50,701 nt of DNA from Bacteroides sp. (lineage in GTDB: Bacteria > Bacteroidota > Bacteroidia > Bacteroidales > Muribaculaceae), in NCBI GenBank assembly GCA_014802045.1, contig JAAVDA010000004.1, forward strand, positions 1-50,701, in the 5' to 3' direction. A program made the translations under genes and the position numbers. A model generated the notes under the pieces. The model saw only the letters and a list, made by a program, of their open reading frames with translations, did no database searches and was not told where the DNA came from. Of the stretch, positions 33,548-50,701 are shown piece after piece. Each line of letters begins with the position of its first letter. Position 1 is the first letter of the stretch.

Positions 33548-34993
33548 ATGTCTGCTCATAAAGATTTCAAAGCCGACTTCATGGAGCGTATTCGCGCCGT
33601 GAAGCCCACAAGATGGGTGCGCTTCGGCCTTGTGGCCCTTATATTCACCCTGTGGGTGGCATGGTTAGGCAACTGGTGGGTGGAACTGTTTGTGATTCTG
33701 CTCTTCGATATCTATATCACCGGCTATATTCCTTTCACCTGGTGGAAAAACAGTAAGAGCAAAACAGTGAGAGCCGTGATGAGCTGGGTCGACGCGATTG
33801 TATATGCGCTGATACTGGTGTATTTCGTATTTGCTTTCGTGGGGCAGAACTACCAGATACCCTCATCATCGCTCGAGAAATCGCTACTTGTGGGCGACTA
33901 TCTGTGGGTCAACAAAATGGCCTATGGTCCGCGTGTGCCTATGACTCCGATTCATTTCCCGTTGGTGCAGAACACCCTCCCTGTCATCAACACCAAGAGC
34001 TATCTTGAGACACCGCAATTCTCCTACCATCGTCTCAAGGGACTGGGCAATGTGGAGTCTGGCGACATAGTGGTGTTCAACTTTCCTGCCGGCGACACCG
34101 TGGCGCTCAAGGTGCAGAATCCCGACTATTACACTCTGGTGAGAATGCTCGGCCACGATGCGGTCAACAACCGTAAAGAGACTTTCGGCGATATTATCTA
34201 TCGTCCGGTTGACCGCAGGGAAAACTATGTGAAGCGTGCGGTGGGTCTGCCGGGAGAAACAATCAGCATTGTCGACGGAACAATTCACATCAATGGAACT
34301 CCGCAACCACAACCGGCCGACGCGCAGTTCAACTATTATTTCCAGACCAACCGCCGGCTATCAACCGCCGATTGGGAAGAATTCGGCATAGCGGCCGACG
34401 ATCGCCAGGAAATCAATGTGACTCCAGCCGACACTGCGGGCCTACGCCTGCTCGGGTTTACCATAAACCCCGATGGTACTGTTCCGCCCCTATATCTTTC
34501 GCCCCTCACAGAGAGCATGCTCACAGCTATGCAGCAGTCGCCAATAGTAGGTAAAATCATGAAGATGCCTGCACCGGAGGGAGAATATCTCTTCCCCGAA
34601 GGAATCGCCGACAGATGGACCCGTGCAAACTATGGCCCGCTATGGATTCCGAAGAAGGGAGAGACCATAAAGCTCGACTGGCACAACTGGGCAATCTACA
34701 ACAGGATAATCCGCAATTATGAGGGGCATCATAACGCATATATCAACGCTGAGGGCACCGTCTACATTGATGGCAAACCGGTCGATGAATATACATTTGC
34801 CATGGATTATTACTTCATGATGGGCGACAACCGCGACAACTCCCTCGATTCCCGCTACTGGGGCTTTGTGCCTGAGGACCATATCGTGGGCAAGCCTATG
34901 CGTGTGCTCATATCATTCGACAAAGACAAAGGTCTGCTCAACGGCGGCATCCGCTGGAACCGCATATTCAAAGACGCAAACCCCGGATTGTGA
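33548..34993 (+). CDS. lepB: Signal peptidase I
   Basis: LepB cleaves Sec signal peptides at the outer face of the inner membrane. The 481-residue protein has two N-terminal hydrophobic regions (about residues 25-65 and 80-105). The catalytic serine motif is IPSSSLEKSLLVGDY, the catalytic lysine is in ENYVKRAVGLPGE, and FMMGDNRDNSLDSRYWG is the conserved box E. An insert of about 150 residues between the lysine and box E regions makes it longer than E. coli LepB, as is common in Bacteroidota. It overlaps the next gene by four bases. Confidence 0.96.
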   Translation: MSAHKDFKADFMERIRAVKPTRWVRFGLVALIFTLWVAWLGNWWVELFVILLFDIYITGYIPFTWWKNSKSKTVRAVMSWVDAIVYALILVYFVFAFVGQNYQIPSSSLEKSLLVGDYLWVNKMAYGPRVPMTPIHFPLVQNTLPVINTKSYLETPQFSYHRLKGLGNVESGDIVVFNFPAGDTVALKVQNPDYYTLVRMLGHDAVNNRKETFGDIIYRPVDRRENYVKRAVGLPGETISIVDGTIHINGTPQPQPADAQFNYYFQTNRRLSTADWEEFGIAADDRQEINVTPADTAGLRLLGFTINPDGTVPPLYLSPLTESMLTAMQQSPIVGKIMKMPAPEGEYLFPEGIADRWTRANYGPLWIPKKGETIKLDWHNWAIYNRIIRNYEGHHNAYINAEGTVYIDGKPVDEYTFAMDYYFMMGDNRDNSLDSRYWGFVPEDHIVGKPMRVLISFDKDKGLLNGGIRWNRIFKDANPGL

Positions 34994-41651: not shown

Positions 41652-43571
41652 ATGAAAAGGGTGTGGCCAATCGTGATGATGATTTCAGCATGGTTTGCAT
41701 CAGGGTGCAGATCCGGCTCCGACCACAATGCATCAATTTTCACCCAAGCAGACTCTCTTATCGAGCACAAACAGCCCGGAGCCGCCCTCAGTCTGCTCCA
41801 GACTGTGGGGTGCGAAAGCCTCTCCGGCTCCGACCGCGCCCTCCATGCACTCCTCACCGTAAAGGCCACCGACAAAGCCTTCACGCCCCACACCTCCGAC
41901 TCCGCCATCAGCATAGCCCTGAGCCATTTCCGCGCCAACGGGCCGACCCTGCGCCGCGCCGAAGCAGCCTACTATCACGGCCGCGTGCTCTCTGACCTCT
42001 ACAACTACGCCGCCGCCCTCGATGCCTACGATGATGCCCTCACCACCCTATCCCCCGACACCACCCGGCGCGCCCTCCGCCTCCGCTCCCACATCCTCTC
42101 CCAGAATGCCCAGCTGCTCGAAGACCTCCGCCTCTACTCCGAAGCAATCCCCTTCTACCGCGCCGCCGCCGAAGCCTCATTGGCTCTCGGAGATACCACC
42201 GACGCATTCCTTGATATTGATCAGATTGTTTTCGACCTCATACAACTCGACAGCATTGCCTCAGCCGAAACTCTCCTCGCCAATGCCCTGCGTCTTCATC
42301 CCGCTCTTACTCCCAACCATCATGCAAACCTTGAAATAACCCGGCGATATATACACCTTAAAAAAGGTGAGCACGACAAAGCCGCAGCCGGCATCGACAC
42401 TGTTTTAGCCTCAAGGGAACCCCGTTTCCGCAATTTCGGTCTAATGACTGCAATTGATGCTTACCAAGGCTTAGGCTTGCGTGATTCTGCCGATTTCTAT
42501 GCTAATATCCTCATAAATCAGGAATTTGAAAATAATAAGACCACGGCCTATGCCACTCTCCTGCGAAACAATCTCGATAGACTTGGCGACCATAAGACTC
42601 TGCTGCTCTTCAATGCTTTTGATAGCCTTACGGATTTGCAAGCCAATACGTTTAGGAAAGCTCCCCAGATAGTGGGCACAGAGTTTCTGAAATATCGCAT
42701 GGAGCAGAAGGAGACCGTGAGACTCCTCCGCCAGAAGCATACTCTGATTTTTGCAATTACAGGAGCTTTTCTCCTGATGCTTCTGCTCATCGCTCTCCTT
42801 TTTTCTTTAAGAGCCCGAAATATTCGCCGCCGTCTGGACTTTGAGCGTAAACAGAAGGAATTTGCAGATAAGGAGATGCTGCTCGAACAATCAAACTCCA
42901 GTCTCCATGAGAAAAACGGATTGCTCTCTACACACAATAAACTCCTCTCGAAAGAAATTGCACAGTTAGCCGAGAGCAATGCCTCGCTCTGTGAGAGAAA
43001 TGAGAATCTTATGCTTGAGTACACTTCGCTCACAGAAAGGCATACGCTCCTGACTGAACAATATATCCGACTGTCACAACTCAACCATCGGCTTTCAGAA
43101 ATCAATTCAGATCTTGAGGCACGCACACTCATAAAGCCGAATTTCGACGAATCACGTGAGAAACTGGTTGAGGACATACTCAGAAACTATTGTCTGCTTT
43201 CTGAAAAGTCACTCTCCGGTGTGCAGGTAGACATATCCATCTCCGGTTGTGAACTATGCAAGCGTATAAGCAATAGAACCACACTGCCACGTCATGACAA
43301 GACTTGGAATGAACTGGAAACCTTGCTGCAGAATAAGGCTCCGGGATTTATGGATACAATCTCCCGACTATACAGCGGCAGCAATATAGAGTACCTCCAT
43401 ATCATTATGCTCATTAGGGTCGGATTCAAGACCACCAAGATAGCAGAGCTATTGTCTAAAGCAAGCAATACAATATCCACCCACAAGACGGCTATCTGCA
43501 ATGAAATGTTTATGGGAAAAGTCACCGTAAAAGAGCTTAATTCAGTAATTATAAGTATTTCAACATTTTAA
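41652..43571 (+). CDS. Membrane-anchored TPR, coiled-coil and HTH regulator
   Basis: The 639-residue protein begins with a lipoprotein-like signal (Cys19, SAWFASGC). Residues about 25-350 are helical repeats of TPR type (ALHALLTVKATDKAF, RRAEAAYYHGRVLSDLYNYA). One transmembrane helix follows at about 363-387 (LIFAITGAFLLMLLLIALL), then a long coiled coil (about 390-495). The C-terminal 140 residues include a LuxR-like helix-turn-helix: VGFKTTKIAELLSKASNTIS followed by THKTAI. The layout suggests a periplasmic TPR sensor wired through the membrane to a cytoplasmic DNA-binding domain. It lies just upstream of the NVEALA cassettes and is the likely regulator of them. Its 5' third is much richer in C-ending codons than the rest. 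Confidence 0.82.
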   Translation: MKRVWPIVMMISAWFASGCRSGSDHNASIFTQADSLIEHKQPGAALSLLQTVGCESLSGSDRALHALLTVKATDKAFTPHTSDSAISIALSHFRANGPTLRRAEAAYYHGRVLSDLYNYAAALDAYDDALTTLSPDTTRRALRLRSHILSQNAQLLEDLRLYSEAIPFYRAAAEASLALGDTTDAFLDIDQIVFDLIQLDSIASAETLLANALRLHPALTPNHHANLEITRRYIHLKKGEHDKAAAGIDTVLASREPRFRNFGLMTAIDAYQGLGLRDSADFYANILINQEFENNKTTAYATLLRNNLDRLGDHKTLLLFNAFDSLTDLQANTFRKAPQIVGTEFLKYRMEQKETVRLLRQKHTLIFAITGAFLLMLLLIALLFSLRARNIRRRLDFERKQKEFADKEMLLEQSNSSLHEKNGLLSTHNKLLSKEIAQLAESNASLCERNENLMLEYTSLTERHTLLTEQYIRLSQLNHRLSEINSDLEARTLIKPNFDESREKLVEDILRNYCLLSEKSLSGVQVDISISGCELCKRISNRTTLPRHDKTWNELETLLQNKAPGFMDTISRLYSGSNIEYLHIIMLIRVGFKTTKIAELLSKASNTISTHKTAICNEMFMGKVTVKELNSVIISISTF

Positions 43572-43593
43572 GCTTTAATATCAGACTGTTTTT

Positions 43594-43644
43594 TTCGACT
43601 TTATCTACTGATCTCGAGATAACTTTCGACTTTTTTTCGACTTT
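43594..43644 (+). promoter_or_regulatory. Three TTCGACTTT direct repeats, candidate operator
   Basis: TTCGACTTT occurs at 43594-43602, 43625-43633 and 43636-43644. The start-to-start distances of 31 and 11 bp are near whole helical turns, so a protein could contact all three on one face of the DNA. They lie between the regulator gene and the -7 box of the first DUF3244 gene, which fits an autoregulator or activator site. Confidence 0.5.
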
Positions 43645-43674
43645 TTTTGTGCAAGAAATAGGAGGCGGTAACCT

Positions 43675-43682
43675 TAACTTTG
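43675..43682 (+). promoter_or_regulatory. -7 promoter element of the first DUF3244 gene
   Basis: TAACTTTG lies 23 bp before the ATG at 43706. The nearest TTTG (43646-43649) is 25 bp upstream, longer than the usual 19-20 bp, so this promoter may need an activator. This differs from the full-match promoters of the second and third copies. Confidence 0.5.
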
Positions 43683-43705
43683 CAGCAAATAAAAAAAATT
43701 CACTC

Positions 43706-44065
43706 ATGAAAAAGCTTCATTTTCTTTTTGCCTTCATTTTGGCGTTATCTTCTTTCGCGCTCCGTGCAGAGATACCGGTGCCGCTCATTGACGAGGAAAC
43801 AATAGATGATCCTAAAAAAGAGCGTCCACGCTCGCGGCCGATGATGCAGTGGTGCACCATCGACACCGATGCCCGTACCATCACCACCACACTCCCCCTC
43901 CCTGTGCTCACCTATTATATCATAGATGAGAGTGAGGCAGTGATTATGGCCTCCGACAGCGCCGAAGAGTTTGCCGATGGCGTAGCCACCCTCCCCGCCG
44001 GAGCCTACACCCTCCGCCTCGTCACCGCCGAATCAGCCTACACCGGCCCCCTCGACATCCAATAG
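43706..44065 (+). CDS. DUF3244 family small secreted protein, copy 1
   Basis: The 119-residue protein starts at MKKLHFLFAFILALSSFALR, a Sec signal peptide cleaved near RAEI. The mature part is beta-rich (ITTTLPLPVLTYYIIDESEA, LPAGAYTLRLVTAESAYTG) and fits the DUF3244 immunoglobulin-like fold. It ends in PLDIQ. Apart from the signal peptide and a few positions near residues 37-59, it is identical to the copy at 47212, mostly also at DNA level. The frame is open back to 43649, but that would include the promoter. The function of DUF3244 is unknown. It is the first gene of the right-hand cassette series. Confidence 0.85.
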   Translation: MKKLHFLFAFILALSSFALRAEIPVPLIDEETIDDPKKERPRSRPMMQWCTIDTDARTITTTLPLPVLTYYIIDESEAVIMASDSAEEFADGVATLPAGAYTLRLVTAESAYTGPLDIQ

Positions 44066-44603
44066 GAAGTCACATGTACTGCCCGAGCCGAAGGCACGGT
44101 GTTGTCAGACCCTCCGGACTTCACTCCGGAGCACATTCACCATCCCGACACTTCGCCACGTGGCCGCATAGCGGGCTAATATGCCAGACTCGGGTGAAAC
44201 GTAAGGCGAAAATAATCCGAGGAAAGATGCGAGAAAAGAAACCGCCCCCTTAGGCGGCTGCAGTCCCTCCTTCCCTGTCAAGGCATTGTGCCCCCTCACA
44301 GAGCTCCGCAGGAGCGATTTATCGAGTAACCCCACATGAAGCGAAGCGGAATGTGGGGTGAGACAGCCACCGCCAAAAAGAGCTTCGGAGATGCGATTGT
44401 AAGTGTACTTTCCGGCACGCACGTGGCGTCTCAATAGCCCCACCCGGGTAAAGAATCCCCCTTATCGACCCCGCAGACGGCCAGCAAAACTTAATCACTC
44501 TCCCATTTCTCTCGCTATAAGCGAGGAAAATCATTCTACAAAGCAAAGCTACGGTCTGAGGCTTCAAAGTTCAGACCACCATCATAAACCAATATCACAC
44601 GAT
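44066..44603 (+). other. 538 bp gene-free region of hairpins and an interspersed repeat
   Basis: No convincing gene is seen. Contents in order: a hairpin CTCCGGA/TCCGGAG at 44112-44131; a repeat unit at 44157-44222 shared with 50404-50472; a hairpin CCCCACAT/ATGTGGGG at 44330-44358; a hairpin CTCGCT/AGCGAG at 44511-44525; and a leader hairpin GGTCTGA/TCAGACC at 44553-44577, 26 bp before the NVEALA ATG. The open frames across it on both strands are explained by GC richness. Confidence 0.65.
44157..44222 (+). repeat. Interspersed intergenic repeat, copy A
   Basis: CACGTGGCCGCATAGCGGGC followed by TAAT, GCCAGAC, GGGTGA, GTAAGGCGAA and CCGAGG recurs at 50404-50472 with small differences and a few indels. 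In both places it lies in a gap between cassette parts. It is non-coding and may be a mobile or recombination element. Confidence 0.7.
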
Positions 44604-44894
44604 ATGAAGAAAACAGTCATCGCCGCTGCCATAGTAGCAGCCGTAGGCTTCTCAGCTTACCTCGGGTTCCGTCCCGACCCCGCCTCCTCCCTCACCGAGC
44701 TCCAGCTCGCCAACGCCGAAGCCCTCTCTAACGGCGAGCTTCCACCCATAGAAGTACTCTGCCCGGCTCCAAGTATTAGGGGTGGGAATTGCCATGAGGT
44801 GGATCCGATGGGGATTGAAAAAGATTGTGGGGGTATGACCTTCACATCCTGTAAATTCAATGGAATACGAGAAAGTATTTGTTCATTTTGCTGA
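44604..44894 (+). CDS. NVEALA-type small secreted protein, copy 2
   Basis: The 96-residue protein starts at MKKTVIAAAIVAAVGFSAYL. Residues 1-42 form a leader with one hydrophobic helix and the conserved ELQLANAEALS (NVEALA) segment. The remaining 54 residues form a tail with six cysteines. The leader DNA (44604-44728) matches the leader at 48591-48715 in about 119 of 125 positions, while the tails are unrelated. NVEALA proteins are exported; whether the tail is cut free or modified is unknown. A hairpin lies in the leader mRNA and another directly after the stop. The frame is open further upstream, but the leader motif fixes the start. Confidence 0.85.
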   Translation: MKKTVIAAAIVAAVGFSAYLGFRPDPASSLTELQLANAEALSNGELPPIEVLCPAPSIRGGNCHEVDPMGIEKDCGGMTFTSCKFNGIRESICSFC

Positions 44895-44902
44895 TTAAAA
44901 AT

Positions 44903-44932
44903 GGTGTTGGATATCCCTAAATATCCAACACC
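44903..44932 (+). terminator. Strong hairpin between NVEALA and propeller genes
   Basis: Perfect 12 bp arms GGTGTTGGATAT (44903-44914) and ATATCCAACACC (44921-44932) with a six-base loop begin nine bases after the NVEALA stop. No T tract follows, so it may act as a partial terminator or an RNA stabiliser that sets a higher level for the peptide mRNA than for the downstream lipoprotein genes. A perfect 12 bp tandem repeat TATTTACTATAA lies right after it (44933-44956). Confidence 0.6.
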
Positions 44933-44956
44933 TATTTACTATAATATTTACTATAA
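44933..44956 (+). repeat. 12 bp tandem repeat
   Basis: TATTTACTATAA is repeated exactly at 44933-44944 and 44945-44956, just before the propeller gene start at 44968. It may be a binding site or a slippage product. Confidence 0.85.
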
Positions 44957-44967
44957 TAGACAACTCA

Positions 44968-46137
44968 ATGAAGAAAACACTGATTCTTTATCTCTTTTTA
45001 ATCATCATGACAGCGTGCAGCAACCAACAGTCACAATCAAAGCAAGAAATCAAAGAATACTATGATCTCAGCACAGCTACCCCAGGTGTACTGACTGATG
45101 TCTTCTCTGATGTAGAGCTCACACCACTGCTTTTTGAGGGAGATTACTACCCCTCTCAAGTATACACCCTCCACAACCATGACTCACTGATTATGGTTCA
45201 GGATAACAGTGAAAATATATTTGTTTTTGATTCTACCGGCCACTACATTTCATCATCAAAGCAGGTATGGGGACAAGGTCCGGGTGAATACTCTATTTAC
45301 ATGGGATATTCTTTCAATCCATATACCGGACTTATTCAGATTCTTACCCCTGACAAAATGATGTGTTATACTCCCAATTTTAATTATATAGAGGAACACA
45401 AGCTACCATCGCATCTGGATCCAACCGGAAAAGAAAGTTTGCTATTTACTTCAATATACGATGTGTCCGACCACATTCACCTTCTAACCACCTTATCCTC
45501 TAGCACGATAAAAGACGCGTATGTATCCTATGACTCCAATACTGAGAATCTTGGTGACACTCTAAGTTTCTCACACTATATAATAGCTCTGGGTAATCGG
45601 CAATATAAAAACTTCTTTAACTTATCAAATGGTGAATATTTTTCAAAACCAGGGTTTGTAGGGGAATACATATTCTCTTTTAATCCTGAAAAGCTTGAAC
45701 TTACCCCCTCCATAAAATTTAACATGGGGCATGAAAGTGTCACCAGGGAAGAATTTCTTGCAAATTCTGATGAAAAGGATTACTATGCTTTTTATAACTA
45801 TCTTGACGATTCAGGAAGAACTATTGTTACTGGGGCACACCCCACAAAGGATAGAATATTCTTTTCTACTACTAATGGAAGAAGATTAAATAGTGTTAAG
45901 TTTATGGTTGCTAATCGCAGAACAGGCGAAATTAAAAAATTCAATTTCTGGGATGATGATGAATTATTCTTCCCTCGTTTGAATGATTTTGACGATGAAT
46001 ATCTTTACAGTGGAGTCACTAAATATGAATTGCTCAAATCGCCGGAGTTATTGTTGGGAAAAGAGATTAACCTCGATTCCTTATTGACAGATATCGACGA
46101 TGATACCATAATCATGCTCAAATACAAAATCAAGTGA
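44968..46137 (+). CDS. 6-bladed beta-propeller (BF3164-like) lipoprotein
   Basis: The 389-residue protein has a lipoprotein signal with Cys17 (LIIMTACSNQ). Blades typical of the family follow, including NIFVFDSTGHYISSSKQVWG and QGPGEYSIY, the family's GxGPGEY turn. No C-terminal extra domain is present. The gene is AT-rich relative to the DUF3244 and NVEALA leader DNA. It should be an envelope lipoprotein; ligands are unknown. It lies between the NVEALA gene and the thioredoxin/DUF1573 gene, with only one base separating it from the latter. Confidence 0.87.
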   Translation: MKKTLILYLFLIIMTACSNQQSQSKQEIKEYYDLSTATPGVLTDVFSDVELTPLLFEGDYYPSQVYTLHNHDSLIMVQDNSENIFVFDSTGHYISSSKQVWGQGPGEYSIYMGYSFNPYTGLIQILTPDKMMCYTPNFNYIEEHKLPSHLDPTGKESLLFTSIYDVSDHIHLLTTLSSSTIKDAYVSYDSNTENLGDTLSFSHYIIALGNRQYKNFFNLSNGEYFSKPGFVGEYIFSFNPEKLELTPSIKFNMGHESVTREEFLANSDEKDYYAFYNYLDDSGRTIVTGAHPTKDRIFFSTTNGRRLNSVKFMVANRRTGEIKKFNFWDDDELFFPRLNDFDDEYLYSGVTKYELLKSPELLLGKEINLDSLLTDIDDDTIIMLKYKIK

Positions 46138-46138
46138 T

Positions 46139-47014
46139 ATGCACATACGTTTCTTTGTTATATCATTATTTCTACTCACCTTGTGGAATGCCTGTACGAA
46201 ATCAGATAAAGAACATCATAATGTTATTGCTGAGATGACTGGCAGAGAAATCGTGTTTCCTGAGGTTCTGAATTATCAGATAGGCGATAAAATGATAGAC
46301 TTTAATCCGTCTGAAGCCGATTACAAGATTATCGTGTATATCGACTCCACAGGATGCACTACCTGTAGGATGAAAATGCCCGTATGGGATAACATAATTT
46401 CCGAATTCAAGACAATTAGCGATAATGAGGTAAGTTTTCTAATGATATTGAACACTGCGGAAACGCCGGACTATATCCATACTATAAATCAAAAAGATTT
46501 TAGACACCCTGTCTGTTTTGACTCTGACAATCTGTTTGACAAGGCTAATAATCTTCCACAGAAAGATGCCTACCATACTTTTCTGCTTGACGCTTCTGAC
46601 CGTATCGTAGCCATTGGTAATCCGGCAGATAATCCTAAAATCAAGCGGTTATATTCAGAAATTATCAAGAATTCCAATCAGAACAATCAATCCCATCTAT
46701 GCTCAAACTTCAGTAGAGCAATTGGAGCCGTGTCAAGAGAGCAGGCTATAAAACAAAAGTTTCAGTTGAAAAATTACTCGGATACGTTGCTGACAATTCA
46801 GGGACTGATACCCTCATGCGATTGTCTTGATATTTCGGTTTCATCTGACACTTTATCTCCTAACGGAAAAATAACTGCGACACTTCTATTTAATCCGGAG
46901 TCTACAGAATCTGGTTCATTCATGAGATATGCAGATATCTATTTCAACGAAAGAGAGTATCCCGAACGCTTATATATTCATGGATTTATTGTAGACAGCA
47001 CTCAATCCGAATAA
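46139..47014 (+). CDS. Thioredoxin-like/DUF1573 lipoprotein, copy 1
   Basis: A 291-residue lipoprotein (Cys19, LWNACTKS). Residues about 60-180 form a thioredoxin-like domain with CxxC at 73-76 (STGCTTCRMKMPVW). Residues about 190-285 form a DUF1573-like beta-sandwich with its CxC motif (IPSCDCLDI at about 225) and FNPESTESGSFMRYADIYF. It may hold or exchange disulfides in the periplasm, perhaps for the Cys-rich NVEALA tails; that link is inference. A close paralogue is at 47670. A terminator hairpin follows. Confidence 0.83.
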   Translation: MHIRFFVISLFLLTLWNACTKSDKEHHNVIAEMTGREIVFPEVLNYQIGDKMIDFNPSEADYKIIVYIDSTGCTTCRMKMPVWDNIISEFKTISDNEVSFLMILNTAETPDYIHTINQKDFRHPVCFDSDNLFDKANNLPQKDAYHTFLLDASDRIVAIGNPADNPKIKRLYSEIIKNSNQNNQSHLCSNFSRAIGAVSREQAIKQKFQLKNYSDTLLTIQGLIPSCDCLDISVSSDTLSPNGKITATLLFNPESTESGSFMRYADIYFNEREYPERLYIHGFIVDSTQSE

Positions 47015-47046
47015 AAGGCATTATATTACCCGGGGTTGAAGCTACG

Positions 47047-47076
47047 GCGGGGAGGCTTCAGTCGGTGCCTCCCCGC
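47047..47076 (+). terminator. Terminator-like hairpin at the end of the first right-hand cassette
   Basis: Perfect 10 bp arms GCGGGGAGGC/GCCTCCCCGC with loop TTCAGTCGGT, followed by TTTC. An almost identical hairpin follows the next cassette at 50338-50367. Confidence 0.65.
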
Positions 47077-47089
47077 TTTCATCCCCCGA

Positions 47090-47264
47090 TTGCGGAGCCT
47101 CGAAGAAGCGGAATGGTTGAAGTTCTCAACTAAATTTTTCGTTATAAGAACGAATTTATTTGGTACTATTGTCCTCATTCACTAACTTTGCTGAAAATAA
47201 AAATTTTACTGATGAAAAAGCTCCGTCTCATTTCAGCACTCATTTTTGCACTCTCTGCTTTCGC
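47090..47264 (+). repeat. Duplicated promoter/signal-peptide segment, copy 1
   Basis: The 175 bp from 47090 match 50527-50701 without gaps and with about seven mismatches by eye. It includes the promoter, leader and the beginning of the DUF3244 gene. The second copy is cut by the window end, so the true repeat is longer. Confidence 0.9.
47138..47190 (+). promoter_or_regulatory. Promoter and candidate operator of DUF3244 copy 2
   Basis: TTTG at 47159-47162 and TAACTTTG at 47183-47190 are 20 bp apart, a full-match Bacteroidales promoter. Directly upstream is a dyad TTCGTT-ATAAG-AACGAA (47138-47154), a possible regulator site. Both features are kept in the third copy at 50575-50627. Confidence 0.7.
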
Positions 47265-47571
47265 GCTCCGTGCAGAGATACCGGTGCCGCTCATTGACGA
47301 GGAAACAATAGATGACCCGGATAATGAACGTAGACGTTCGCGCCCGATGATGCAGTGGTGCACCATCGACACCGATGCCCGCACCGTCATCACCACACTC
47401 CCCCTCCCTGTGCTCACCTATTATATCATAGATGAGAGTGAGGCAGTGATTATGGCCTCCGACAGCGCCGAAGAATTTGCCGATGGCGTAGCCACCCTCC
47501 CCGCCGGAGCCTACACCCTCCGCCTCGTCACCGCCGAATCAGCCTACACCGGCCCCCTCGACATCCAATAG
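47212..47571 (+). CDS. DUF3244 family small secreted protein, copy 2
   Basis: The 119-residue protein starts at MKKLRLISALIFALSAFALR and has a Sec signal peptide. The mature part is the same as in copy 1 (43706) except at about five positions (DPDNERRR instead of DPKKERPR, and ARTVITT instead of ARTITTT). The near-identity at synonymous sites points to recent duplication or gene conversion. The protein should fold as a small Ig-like domain outside the cytoplasm. Next is the thioredoxin/DUF1573 lipoprotein, so the cassette order differs from the first one. Confidence 0.85.
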   Translation: MKKLRLISALIFALSAFALRAEIPVPLIDEETIDDPDNERRRSRPMMQWCTIDTDARTVITTLPLPVLTYYIIDESEAVIMASDSAEEFADGVATLPAGAYTLRLVTAESAYTGPLDIQ

Positions 47572-47669
47572 ATGTCCGAGCGATGGCACGCATTGTGCGC
47601 TATGACATACGATTGCTGTCCCACCTCCCCTGCTGTTCCACCTCTTTCCACCGCTCCTCATCCAAAGCT

Positions 47670-48572
47670 ATGCGAAATCTTATAACCGCCACATATCTAA
47701 CCCTGCTCGCCATGCTGAGCGCCTGTGCCCCTTCCGCCAAAGAGCGCAACACCGCTCTTGTGGCCGAATGGGTAGGCCGCGAACTCATCATACCCGACGA
47801 ATTGGTTTATACCATCATGGGTGATACCATCGACTACGACCCTCTGGATGCCGACTACACTATCGTGGCCTATATAGACTCCGCAGGGTGTACGGAGTGT
47901 CGCATGAAGCTAAATAAATGGGAGGAGATTATCGCACAAATGAACTCAGACCCGACAATAGATGTCAACTTCCTTATGGTAGTAGACTCTCCTGATGTGA
48001 AAGAGGCTATAAGAGTGCAGAAACGTGGGTTCTTTGACTATCCTTTGGCTATTGATAACGCCGCATTGTTCAAAGAAGCCAACAGAACGTTACCGGATAA
48101 TGAAATGTTTCATGTGTTTCTTCTTGATTCCTCCGGAAGTATTGTAGCAATCGGCTCACCCGTACTCAATCCCAATCTTCTCAAACTCTATCTCAAGACG
48201 GCAGGCGTAGAGGCTATAGTCAATGATATACCTATGCATACAGATGTAGGGATGAAGTCTGTTGGAGTATTGGCTGATGACGATTCGACCGTAGTGAAAT
48301 TCACTCTTCGCAACTCTTCATCTCAGCCGGTGGAAATTTCCGGGATTGTTGAGTCATGTGCTTGTATGGATGCGCAGGCAGATAGTCAGATAATTCCTAC
48401 CGACGGTAAAGTAGAAGTTTCCATAACTATTCATGGCGACACAGCCACAGTCCGCAATTCTGCTCAGGTCTTTTTTACCGATACTGAGCAACCTCTCCTA
48501 CTTAAAACAATTTCTTACGCTAAAAAACAACCCGCAGCCTCCCAAGCTGCACCAAGACAACCTAAATATTAA
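47670..48572 (+). CDS. Thioredoxin-like/DUF1573 lipoprotein, copy 2
   Basis: I use the ATG at 47670 (MRNLITATYLTLLAMLSAC), where a lipobox gives Cys19; the longer frame from 47583 would bury the signal peptide. The product has 300 residues. The thioredoxin-like domain has CxxC at 74-77 (SAGCTECRMKLNKW). The DUF1573-like C-terminal domain has the CxC motif in VESCACMDAQ. It is a clear paralogue of the 46139 protein (GREL-x-x-P, then AYIDSAGC). Its first 240 bp are GC-rich and the rest is AT-richer, so the gene looks mosaic. Confidence 0.83.
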   Translation: MRNLITATYLTLLAMLSACAPSAKERNTALVAEWVGRELIIPDELVYTIMGDTIDYDPLDADYTIVAYIDSAGCTECRMKLNKWEEIIAQMNSDPTIDVNFLMVVDSPDVKEAIRVQKRGFFDYPLAIDNAALFKEANRTLPDNEMFHVFLLDSSGSIVAIGSPVLNPNLLKLYLKTAGVEAIVNDIPMHTDVGMKSVGVLADDDSTVVKFTLRNSSSQPVEISGIVESCACMDAQADSQIIPTDGKVEVSITIHGDTATVRNSAQVFFTDTEQPLLLKTISYAKKQPAASQAAPRQPKY

Positions 48573-48590
48573 CTCTAAACTAAACCGCAG

Positions 48591-48854
48591 ATGAAAAAAT
48601 CGCTCATCGCCGCTGCTATAGTAGCAGCCGTAGGCTTCTCAGCCTACCTCGGGTTCCGTCCCGACCCCGCCTCCTCCCTCACCGAGCTCCAGCTCGCCAA
48701 CGCCGAAGCCCTCTCAGATATCGAAGATGAGCTGGGTTACTCAAAAGGGTGTTTAGAAGGAGGCACCGGATGCCATATATGGCCTAATAGATTTTATCCT
48801 ACCTGCTATGGAATAATGTCTAATGGACAGCCGGATCCGGATACACTTCCCTGA
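48591..48854 (+). CDS. NVEALA-type small secreted protein, copy 3
   Basis: The 87-residue protein starts at MKKSLIAAAIVAAVGFSAYL. Residues 1-42 repeat the leader of copy 2 almost exactly, including ELQLANAEALS. The 45-residue tail is different (DIEDELGYSKGCLEGGTGCH, then PNRFYPTCYG) and has three cysteines. It follows the thioredoxin/DUF1573 gene by 18 bp and precedes the propeller gene by 20 bp, so the group of three is likely one transcript. The leader/tail boundary is sharp at DNA level. Confidence 0.85.
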   Translation: MKKSLIAAAIVAAVGFSAYLGFRPDPASSLTELQLANAEALSDIEDELGYSKGCLEGGTGCHIWPNRFYPTCYGIMSNGQPDPDTLP

Positions 48855-48874
48855 AAAATGAGAATCCTTGAAGC

Positions 48875-50314
48875 ATGAAAAAAAGGTACTTACCTATCCT
48901 GATTATTGTAATGAGTGCATGCACTCATTACAATAATTCATCTGAAATTATCCAATCTCGTGATAATGAGATAGATATTTCCTGTATGATCGAAGAGTTC
49001 GATATGGGTGAAATAATAATAGGGAAACAAGCTCTTCTTGCAACCACCCCGGAAAATCTATATGTCTTTGATATCGGCAGCTCCGACAATCTGGTTTATA
49101 TTTTCGATCCGTTCTCTGGTTCATATAAAGGACAAGGAATAAATTACGGACCCGGACCAAATGAAATAGGTCAGCCGGACATTCCCACTGTCAGTACTTA
49201 CATGGGGAGAGATAAAATTTTAATGATTGATCTCGCCCAGTGGAAAATTATGCGGTACGATACGGACAGTATGATTGTAGACTCTGCTTATGTCCCACAA
49301 CGTCTGTTGAAAATAAACGATAATAATTTCCCTTCAAGAGCAAGGGTTATTAACGACTCGACTCTCTTAGCACAGAATATATGGTTAGACCCCAATTCTT
49401 CTAAATTCACCAAAGTATTAGAAAGATTTAATCTCCGAAAAGGAGCTTTTGAAAGCTTCATAGACCCCAGCAATGGACCGGCACAAAACTTCTCATATGA
49501 TGCGAGAATAGATAAAAACCTGATAGTAAGTGGGGACTATGGTAAAGACCGGATATTGCTGCTCAACTCATCCGGATTGACAAAAAGAAACATATTGGGG
49601 CCTGAGTACGGGTCGGACAAGAAGCTGATTGCATTTTCCAATATTGTGATAACAGATAAATATATTCTTGCAGTATATTCAGGCTGTAAGATTGAACCCT
49701 CTGTGATGGCCTATGATTTGGATATGCTCGGTAAAAAGATAGTTGTGATGGATCATGAGGGAAATTACTTAGCTACATTAAAAACTGATTCTTCAATTAA
49801 AGATATCAAATATCACGAAGAAACCGGAAAACTCTATCTTGCCCTATCGGGAGATATTCAGATAGGCCGTGTTGATTTAGAGAAAATCTTATCCGATGAA
49901 ATATCAATAAACAATAGCCCGAAAAACAATAGCCCGAACCACAAGGAAGCATCATCTAATCCCGATAAAACACCGATTGTATTTCTCGATGATAAAGATC
50001 AGGAGACAGATCATTTGGATTTAGGGAATATTCTTATCTCCAATGCAAATGATGCTGTTTCATATCAGATGATACAATGTGACAAGAACTCAAAAAATGA
50101 AAAATTTGATATTGACTCCGTAATCGTGACACCCGATTTTATAGACGGTGATCTGGGTCTCAATTTTATGTATCCGGGATTAATAACCTCCTTAACATTA
50201 AGACTTAATGGTAAAGCTACCGCCGGTCCTTTTCGAGGAAAGGTAGAGATATATGGAAACGGATTCGATAAACCCGCCACTTGTTCTATTTCCGGAACAA
50301 TCGTCAAAGAGTGA
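48875..50314 (+). CDS. Beta-propeller lipoprotein fused to a DUF1573-like domain
   Basis: The 479-residue lipoprotein (Cys16, IVMSACTHYN) has a 6-bladed propeller region up to about residue 340, with GPGPNEIGQP at the usual family turn. After a polar Asn/Ser/Pro-rich linker, residues about 367-479 resemble a DUF1573 beta-sandwich (LDLGNILISNANDAVSYQMI; GKVEIYGNGFDKPATCSISG). The CxC motif of the neighbouring DUF1573 proteins is absent. It combines two modules that are separate proteins in the first cassette. The signal-sequence DNA contains a perfect 36 bp palindrome. Confidence 0.83.
   Translation: MKKRYLPILIIVMSACTHYNNSSEIIQSRDNEIDISCMIEEFDMGEIIIGKQALLATTPENLYVFDIGSSDNLVYIFDPFSGSYKGQGINYGPGPNEIGQPDIPTVSTYMGRDKILMIDLAQWKIMRYDTDSMIVDSAYVPQRLLKINDNNFPSRARVINDSTLLAQNIWLDPNSSKFTKVLERFNLRKGAFESFIDPSNGPAQNFSYDARIDKNLIVSGDYGKDRILLLNSSGLTKRNILGPEYGSDKKLIAFSNIVITDKYILAVYSGCKIEPSVMAYDLDMLGKKIVVMDHEGNYLATLKTDSSIKDIKYHEETGKLYLALSGDIQIGRVDLEKILSDEISINNSPKNNSPNHKEASSNPDKTPIVFLDDKDQETDHLDLGNILISNANDAVSYQMIQCDKNSKNEKFDIDSVIVTPDFIDGDLGLNFMYPGLITSLTLRLNGKATAGPFRGKVEIYGNGFDKPATCSISGTIVKE
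48902..48937. repeat. Perfect 36 bp palindrome in the lipoprotein signal sequence
   Basis: ATTATTGTAATGAGTGCA and its exact complement meet with no spacer at 48919/48920. The palindrome lies 27-62 bases into the propeller gene and encodes the lipobox and first mature residues. In RNA it would form an 18 bp stem (minus loop bases) early in the message. Confidence 0.95.
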
Positions 50315-50337
50315 TATATTCTGGGGTTGATACTGTT

Positions 50338-50367
50338 GCGGGGAGGCCTCAGTCGGTGCCTCCCCGC
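50338..50367 (+). terminator. Terminator-like hairpin at the end of the second right-hand cassette
   Basis: Perfect 10 bp arms GCGGGGAGGC/GCCTCCCCGC with loop CTCAGTCGGT followed by TTTC, one loop base different from the hairpin at 47047-47076. Confidence 0.65.
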
Positions 50368-50403
50368 TTTCATCCCTCGGTTGCGGGATTTATGCCGGGG
50401 CAA

Positions 50404-50472
50404 CACGTGGCCGCATAGCGGGCTAATGCCAGACCCTGGGTGAGTGAGCCGTAAGGCGAACATAACCCGAGG
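50404..50472 (+). repeat. Interspersed intergenic repeat, copy B
   Basis: Second copy of the unit at 44157-44222, beginning CACGTGGCCGCATAGCGGGC. It lies between the terminator-like hairpin and the promoter of the third DUF3244 gene, and there is no counterpart in the 47.0-47.2 kb gap. Confidence 0.7.
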
Positions 50473-50574
50473 CATAGAATCCCACCTCTCCTCACGACCC
50501 TGCTATGGGCTGCACACCCCAGGCGCTTGCGGAGCCTCGAAGAAGCGGAATGGTTGAAGTCCTCAACTAAATTT

Positions 50575-50627
50575 TTCGTTATAAGAACGAATTTATTTGG
50601 GATTATGAGCCTCATTCACTAACTTTG
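50575..50627 (+). promoter_or_regulatory. Promoter and candidate operator of DUF3244 copy 3
   Basis: Dyad TTCGTT/AACGAA (50575-50591), TTTG (50596-50599) and TAACTTTG (50620-50627) with a 20 bp spacer repeat the arrangement at 47138-47190. The spacer differs at several bases while the boxes and dyad are conserved. Confidence 0.7.
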
Positions 50628-50648
50628 CTGAAAATAAAAATTTTACTG

Positions 50649-50701
50649 ATGAAAAAGCTCCGTCTCATTTCAGCACTCATTTTTGCACTCTCTGCTTTTG
50701 C
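50649..50701 (+). CDS. DUF3244 family protein, copy 3, 5' partial
   Basis: The first 17 codons (MKKLRLISALIFALSAF) match copy 2 with one silent change before the window ends. It marks the start of a third cassette outside the window. Confidence 0.8.
   Translation, partial: MKKLRLISALIFALSAF

Follow-up and report, generated by a model that had tools for sequence, protein, structure and literature searches.

Variable cores of NVEALA peptides and adjacent propeller lipoproteins as candidate matched pairs in peptide cassettes scattered across Bacteroidales

The class II bacteriocin-immunity cassettes of Gram-positive bacteria combine a conserved leader, a variable core and a cognate gene directly behind it, and they occur in tandem arrays with adjacent sensors. 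A similar layout is seen in the cassettes studied here, which lie at the end of a stretch of 50,701 bases (hereafter the window, bases 1-50,701 of the 68,860-base contig JAAVDA010000004.1, from a draft Bacteroidales genome of 2.2 Mb and 75.7% completeness) and in which a gene for a small exported peptide of the NVEALA family is accompanied by genes for a propeller lipoprotein and a thioredoxin-like/DUF1573 lipoprotein. They differ from the class II cassettes in being Gram-negative, in their Sec-type leader and in having the propeller lipoprotein as the candidate partner, and we know of no protein family common to the two.

Within Bacteroidales, the bacteroidetocins are likewise small multi-cysteine peptides with a leader and an adjacent thiol oxidoreductase gene, but the available text of their description (PMC6671954) gives them an ABC peptidase-transporter, a short leader of the double-glycine type and no gene for immunity, whereas the NVEALA precursors combine a long, Sec-like leader with a propeller partner. 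Read by eye, NVEALA leaders end in NVEALA-like motifs and not in a double glycine; no ABC peptidase-transporter was noticed among the 30 neighbour clusters listed, of which only some were identified and for which no transporter-profile search was made. The leader/core logic is also shared by the GG-leader (double-glycine) clusters of ribosomally synthesized and post-translationally modified peptides in Bacteroidales, some of which also have tetratricopeptide repeat (TPR) or histidine kinase/response regulator genes; these clusters mostly carry peptidase-containing ATP-binding transporters (PCAT) and GG motifs, and the words propeller, signal peptidase and NVEALA are absent from the accessible text of PMC10352776. 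The BT_3442-BT_3433 cluster of B. thetaiotaomicron shares with the window a head pair of a TPR protein and a DUF3244-type exported protein (a homologue of 3d33) followed by duplicated lipoproteins, but its cargo, as far as given in the part of PMC2954219 at hand, consists of MACPF, trefoil and other proteins where the window has NVEALA and propeller genes. Finally, the TPR fold of the regulator in the window resembles that of the RRNPP receptors (Rap, NprR), but here the TPR part is predicted outside the cytoplasm, joined by a transmembrane segment to a helix-turn-helix (HTH) domain, and core specificity was not seen. The word NVEALA occurs in no paper of the searched open-licence PubMed Central (PMC) literature, and searches of it by partner names or related ideas returned no description of the NVEALA/propeller/thioredoxin arrangement. 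The cassette system is real, is scattered across the order and is not described under these family names in that literature. NVEALA, DUF5128/TolB_like, DUF1573 and the BT_3442/DUF3244 head pair, all families without an assigned role, become parts of one testable system.

The NVEALA precursor comprises an N-terminal export segment, a conserved leader ending in NVEALA or NAEAL(A,S), usually followed by xxE, and a core of some 45 residues that is variable and contains cysteine. In the 122 NVEALA genes with a clear motif (13 of 135, without the motif as searched, were left out), cysteine accounts for 8.3% of the cores and 0.8% of the leaders, and its number is even in 98 of the 122 cores, or in 73 of 90 once similar cores are collapsed (p = 2e-9). 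The third core residue is glutamate in 108 of 133. The even cysteine counts, together with the CxxC partner encoded nearby, argue for disulfides in the cores. A thiol oxidoreductase is also encoded beside the bacteroidetocins, and Bacteroides are said, in the text available to us, to lack general disulfide machinery (PMC6671954).

To compare the inheritance of core, leader and propeller, similarities were correlated over 133 pairs from 45 genomes (101 + 32), short or repeated core/propeller pairs being left out and four repeat loci dropped; an earlier run had retained 107 of 117 pairs after the same filter. Core similarity follows propeller similarity (r = 0.586), a value well above the maximum of 0.362 reached in 1000 within-genome shuffles, whereas leader similarity hardly does (r = 0.105, matched by 279 of 1000 such shuffles), and core and leader of the same gene are nearly unrelated in similarity (0.044). 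The thioredoxin-anchored set taken by itself shows the same contrast (0.797 for core-propeller, 0.096 for leader-propeller). The thioredoxin encoded upstream goes with the leader (0.44) rather than with the core (0.12) or the propeller (0.09). Individual loci are in agreement with this picture. The single NVEALA gene of B. fragilis Q1F2 is a chimera of the leader of the first NVEALA gene of strain S82 and the core of the second, with the switch at the NVEALA codons. At the same site, a close Bacteroides metagenome-assembled genome (MAG) is 96.7% identical to S82 as far as the point where leader and core of their second NVEALA gene meet, then shows no blastn match across the core, the propeller and most of the thioredoxin gene, after which about 95% identity resumes. 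The window bears the same signature of leader/core recombination, its two leaders being 95% identical and its cores unrelated. Since the core tends to be inherited with the propeller and not with its own leader, core and propeller would form a unit, which recombination at the NVEALA motif can join to a leader already present. Taken together, these comparisons give good support to the inheritance of core and propeller as one matched pair, linkage explaining part of it, and make it likely that the two interact, as a candidate pair.

The pairing recurs well beyond the window. A Pfam NVEALA search of 61 relatives gave matches at E<=0.01 in 10 of them, nine being among the 34 genomes of the window's genus and the tenth (G047) lying outside it, and 26 of 392 genomes of the order had matches at 1e-4; since at most 15 candidates were scored per genome and 90% completeness was demanded, the order-wide counts are lower bounds. 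Stretches of 3-20 kb around the matches were collected, and neighbours were tabulated with profiles grown from the window genes for 135 NVEALA genes in 92 loci of 35 genomes (one gene lies at an edge, hence n = 134). The next gene on the same strand encodes a propeller lipoprotein for 117 of 134 NVEALA genes, with a median gap of 24 nt, as compared with 18 of the 712 non-family genes that these loci contain. Up to six genes away from NVEALA, 88 of 89 loci have a propeller and 54 a thioredoxin/DUF1573 gene, and fewer have a transglutaminase-like lipoprotein (21), an S26 signal peptidase (20), a Wzy_C protein (19) or a TPR regulator (12). In 20 comparison stretches of 20 kb from the same genomes, placed by hand at round coordinates and not randomly drawn, there was no match to NVEALA, propeller, thioredoxin, regulator, S26 or Wzy_C, a comparison that tilts toward the finding because the partner profiles were trained on NVEALA loci. 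The same stretches gave four transglutaminase-like matches, two of them short (1.00 per 100 kb, against 2.66 in NVEALA loci). When the search was anchored instead on thioredoxin/DUF1573, NVEALA and propeller genes were present in 25 of 26 loci, the only miss being cut by a contig end; five of the 26, including the miss, duplicate DNA of the first set, and the remaining 21 all carry both. A reading of the window made from its sequence only had proposed a candidate system; it is recurrent, and the neighbour tables clearly bear it out for the propeller and for thioredoxin/DUF1573; S26 and Wzy_C, partners which that reading had not named, are also enriched near NVEALA genes. Chance co-location is rejected by the comparison stretches, the reverse anchor and the genus co-occurrence described below. 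Around 12 propellers distant from known NVEALA genes, an NVEALA-like gene was seen in four regions (by profile in L186, L187 and L196, by eye in L190), which did not in every case directly precede the propeller used as entry point.

Within the window's genus, nine of 34 genomes have NVEALA genes and 25 do not. Thioredoxin/DUF1573 is found in all nine and, as a partial match, in one of the 25 others (Fisher 2e-7), Wzy_C in nine of nine and none of 25 (2e-8), and the cassette-type S26 (E<=1e-69) in eight of nine and none of 25 (5e-7); the query alignments of thioredoxin, Wzy_C and S26 include sequences from four, five and six of the nine NVEALA genomes, respectively, and so partly match themselves. 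In the held-out genomes only, the counts are five of five, four of four and two of three (Fisher 4e-5, 4e-5 and 0.008). S26 matches in the 25 NVEALA-free genomes reach 1e-33 at best and are mostly frames of about 490 residues. Ser46 and Lys87, presumably the catalytic pair, are invariant in the eight S26 rows. Wzy_C and S26 genes also lie together on contigs without a Pfam NVEALA match in four genomes (G005:C2, G010:C209, G025:C176 and G032:C92), for which reason the two may act in trans for all cassettes of a genome. Our data thus show by co-occurrence that thioredoxin/DUF1573, a distinct S26 and a distinct Wzy_C accompany NVEALA genes in this genus, the last two being sometimes encoded elsewhere. 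Propeller rows number 6-32 in the nine NVEALA genomes and 0-4 in the others, six of the 25 having any. An orphan-immunity role for the propellers of NVEALA-negative genomes was considered and found no support, four of the nine fetched (L230-L233) adjoining the same aminotransferase-like gene.

Based on these data, we propose that the locus is an array of cassettes for exported leader/core peptides with cognate propeller partners, matured in the envelope, and perhaps consisting of peptide and immunity protein; this is a tentative reading, to which we give a probability of roughly 0.45. Each NVEALA gene would encode a precursor made of export segment, leader and variable core, and recombination at the NVEALA motif would splice a core + propeller unit onto the resident leader. 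After Sec export, cleavage by S26 would fall at the NVEALA motif or close to it, core disulfides would be made or corrected by the thioredoxin protein, and Wzy_C may attach a glycan or a lipid-linked group; these maturation steps are a reasonable inference. The propeller would bind its own core in the envelope, and, in what is the least certain step, the peptide would act on related bacteria with the propeller as the core-specific immunity protein of the producer. The TPR/HTH membrane regulator at the head of the window cassettes probably controls them and appears not to read the core. A role in antagonism and immunity, one of two possibilities raised by the sequence-only reading, is compatible with these putative cognate pairs. 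A bolder form of the proposal can be put forward with considerable doubt: a new polymorphic class of Gram-negative peptides, exported by Sec, cut by S26 at NVEALA, given disulfides by the thioredoxin and ligated by Wzy_C, each with its own propeller, would owe its diversity to recombination inside the NVEALA motif, so that a strain would retain its own leader while exchanging cores and their partners with other strains. Should the pairing prove functional, variable exported peptides and their matched partners would form a large repertoire in gut bacteria, Bacteroides fragilis and Muribaculaceae among them, and predictions follow on the propeller that each core binds, on the leader-cleaving enzyme and on the regulator to which each peptide corresponds.

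Several observations weigh against this proposal. With a mean net charge of -2.4 and 79% of them negative, the cores are acidic, unlike cationic membrane-active peptides, and the roles of Wzy_C and S26 are guesses from family names. Near-invariance across 114 propellers is confined to the lipid cysteine, a GxGPxE motif and two prolines, a pattern that suggests neither an enzyme nor an interface. Histidine kinases (1.20 against 1.25 per 100 kb in comparison stretches) and response regulators (1.55 against 1.25) are not enriched in NVEALA loci, and eight of the 12 regions fetched around propellers distant from known NVEALA genes showed no NVEALA-like gene. As to the correlations, none of 1000 free shuffles reaches the leader-propeller value of 0.105, small as it is, which is what relatedness would produce. 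The core-propeller value of the thioredoxin-anchored set is inflated because this set includes several near-identical B. fragilis-group loci. The downstream thioredoxin also tracks the propeller (0.49, against 0.89 for core-propeller in the same 28 cassettes), in a set for which shuffling within genomes does not settle the matter, as 68 of 1000 shuffles reach the core-propeller value, and part of the core-propeller correlation is linkage, because the genes adjoin.

Linkage could in principle be the whole explanation, core and propeller travelling together because recombination falls upstream of both, with no functional interaction. In agreement with it, the recombination point lies at the leader/core junction, so that whatever is downstream, much of the thioredoxin gene included, can be transferred as one. 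We consider it quite improbable, since in the same cassettes the core-propeller correlation exceeds the thioredoxin-propeller one and since a propeller follows the great majority of NVEALA genes across 35 genomes. The propeller could also be a core-specific maturation, chaperone or display partner, neither immunity protein nor receptor, of a peptide that is a surface or envelope component. This explanation, which seems improbable to us, is in line with one propeller per peptide close on its 3' side, with the linkage of CxxC lipoproteins and with the transglutaminase-like lipoprotein in 21 of 89 loci. Among 92 propellers scored, the five positions after the lipid cysteine contain no acidic residue in 47 and one in 38, which, judged by the surface-export signal of Bacteroidota, suggests a periplasmic face. 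Speaking against a pure maturation role, propellers outnumber NVEALA genes (22 propeller rows in the window genome against nine NVEALA genes in the loci taken), a count that includes distant members, the profile being broad.

The remaining alternative is a pheromone and its receptor, in which the secreted core would signal kin or dose, the propeller would bind the core and the neighbouring regulator would respond. The acidic cores noted above fit it, and so does the distribution of regulators around two core subtypes. For subtype A (C..G[SCDTN][VIL][DE]C), all 17 cases have a regulator no more than three genes away, in 14 of them a membrane-anchored protein, and all four subtype B cases lie near a histidine kinase or response regulator, against either type near 19 of 156 other NVEALA genes; the two subtypes were defined post hoc, their patterns were slightly widened later, the regulator of L217 was assigned by hand and many cases are from related Bacteroides. 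The subtype A regulators are mostly of 350-460 residues with an N-terminal hydrophobic stretch, and two of five scanned have a weak match to Trans_reg_C (a C-terminal winged-helix domain). The similarity of the membrane-anchored regulator correlates with that of the core (0.74, n = 15), but it tracks the leader even more (0.92), as plain co-inheritance would give. Furthermore, 17 of the 50 PDB matches listed for the TPR regulator of the window belong to the Rap/NprR class of peptide-pheromone receptors; TPR folds are, however, mutually similar, and LGN TPR domains take much of the same list. The sequence-only reading had the TPR protein sense the variable peptide, a suggestion for which there is no support here, as the similarity of the window-type regulator is uncorrelated with that of the core (r = -0.01, 17 pairs, a small sample from which the four repeat loci were dropped; 0.22 with the leader), and sensing of the core by this RRNPP-like regulator is not supported. 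Since each of the other regulator types adjoins its own conserved core subtype, peptide sensing is plausible at loci with a membrane-anchored regulator or a histidine kinase pair. The pheromone explanation is somewhat unlikely, and we have a slight preference for immunity over it as the role of the propeller.

In the window, the cassettes stand behind a predicted membrane-spanning regulator (41652-43571, +) with an N-terminal signal containing Cys19, TPR at about residues 40-311, a transmembrane segment at about 362-385 (read from the sequence), a coiled coil and a C-terminal HTH-like domain. An AlphaFold2 (AF2) model shows the same signal, TPR, long helix with transmembrane segment, coiled coil and a small helical domain (predicted local distance difference test, pLDDT, 74; predicted template modelling score, pTM, 0.51). 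The PDB entry that it matches best is a Rap pheromone receptor, with a template modelling (TM) score of 0.34 by query length. NCBIfam BT3442_fam (NF053779) matches residues 7-447 weakly (E=4e-12), with 45.5 bits against a cut-off of 940, indicating a related architecture but not membership. The gene list, the profiles and the DNA repeats confirm the map of the earlier reading, namely NVEALA, propeller and thioredoxin/DUF1573 cassettes behind this protein, with two complete cassettes and the beginning of a third at the window end. As a partner of the cassettes in general, which had also been proposed, the TPR-HTH protein holds only in part: it is near 12 of 89 NVEALA loci and 12 of 26 thioredoxin-scan loci, while most of the family (84 rows in 17 of 20 genomes) lies away from NVEALA matches. 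Six of these 12 thioredoxin-scan loci (L198, L199, L206, L213, L216 and L222) have the order regulator, small gene, thioredoxin, NVEALA, propeller, like the second cassette of the window, with stray open reading frames between in some.

The first cassette has the order NVEALA-propeller-thioredoxin and the second thioredoxin-NVEALA-propeller, all genes being on the + strand. NVEALA peptide 1 (44604-44894) has its leader at 44604-44729, up to NAEALS, and its core at 44730-44891; peptide 2 (48591-48854) has its leader at 48591-48716 and a core at 48717-48851 that is unrelated to core 1. The DNA identity of the two genes is 95% over 125 nt, that is the 42-codon leader, and the repeat stops there. 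Both peptides fit the expected export segment, NVEALA-like motif and short variable tail, and local profiles place them with the remaining family members; their matches to Pfam PF14055 (23.1 and 20.0 bits, E=6e-5 and 6e-4) are under the curated 27-bit cut-off, which none of the eight rows in the window genome passes and genes in other genomes of the genus do. The candidate partner of peptide 1 is a six-bladed propeller lipoprotein (44968-46137) that matches Pfam DUF5128 (E=1e-14, 54.9 bits against a cut-off of 22.9). Its AF2 model (pLDDT 85) is closest in fold to 4raa (TM score 0.68), the exported B. fragilis protein BF0058, for which no role is stated, and also matches 3s9j, a DUF4221 protein. 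An enzymatic role for the propeller was considered and rejected: there are no invariant catalytic-looking residues, and the fold matches listed offer no usable enzyme lead. The candidate partner of peptide 2 (48875-50314) is a propeller lipoprotein with a DUF1573-like tail, assigned solely through the local profile and alignment, its TolB_like score of 26.2 bits being under the cut-off of 29.2. The first thioredoxin-like lipoprotein (46139-47014) carries CTTC as its CxxC motif and a DUF1573 domain (E=2e-13), and the second lies at 47670-48572, with a possible alternative upstream ATG at 47583.

Small exported DUF3244-like proteins are encoded at 43706-44065 (copy 1), at 47212-47571 (copy 2, 90% identical to copy 1 in protein) and, running off the window end, from 50649 to 50701 (start of copy 3, in a stretch with unresolved bases read as X). 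A DNA repeat search placed the small-gene copies within a repeat (89% over 300 nt), and a direct repeat of 178 nt at 96% (47087-47264 and 50524-50701) covers the starts of copies 2 and 3. As single sequences the small proteins of the window give no match to the DUF3244 profile; a relative in L100 matches it under the cut-off (E=0.002), and a profile built from 16 rows of the family finds the DUF3244 structure 3sd2 (E=4e-7) and, less convincingly, 3d33 (E=0.014, a weak match). The DUF3244 protein had been counted as a partner in every cassette. Where contigs suffice it accompanies the regulator instead, also away from NVEALA, just as BT_3441 (DUF3244 type) adjoins BT_3442 in B. thetaiotaomicron in the part of PMC2954219 at hand. 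The TPR/HTH regulator and the small protein are perhaps a general head module with other cargo elsewhere. At L178, L183, L184 and L185, a TPR/HTH regulator is followed by a small exported, partly DUF3244-like protein, and an NVEALA gene was not seen.

A search of seven window proteins gave no match in PHROGs and one weak match among the PADLOC models (a CARF model, E=0.002), and with no good defence match a phage or defence origin of the locus was rejected. At the other end of the window, another member of the broad propeller lipoprotein family (623-1831, -; local profile E=2.5e-36) has no NVEALA match near it. The 481-residue S26 signal peptidase at 33548-34993 (+) is probably a housekeeping enzyme and is distinct from the cassette-type S26 at G000:C29. 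Beyond the window, the contig adds three NVEALA genes (C4:53279, 54983 and 67191), each followed by a propeller, for five NVEALA-propeller pairs in total, and a second TPR/HTH regulator at C4:64697; it stops just past the last propeller.

Among plasmid records, one NVEALA query found none and a thioredoxin query seven, two of which were inspected. In P. vulgatus NZ_CP096966.1 the local profiles show just a thioredoxin-like gene. Phocaeicola massiliensis OY726023.1 (L224), deposited as a circular plasmid, has a full array at about 109-124 kb, with five NVEALA genes, three of them with a propeller next, plus DUF4221 and thioredoxin genes. Cassettes were also found in MAGs titled Clostridium, Staphylococcus and Lachnospiraceae (L204, L214, L216, L221 and L222), which look mislabelled because L204 and L214 show full identity with a genome from the window's genus. 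Finally, in L146 (G371:C19) a block made up of regulator, thioredoxin and NVEALA leader occurs in two near-identical copies that differ in the cores downstream, and looks recently duplicated.

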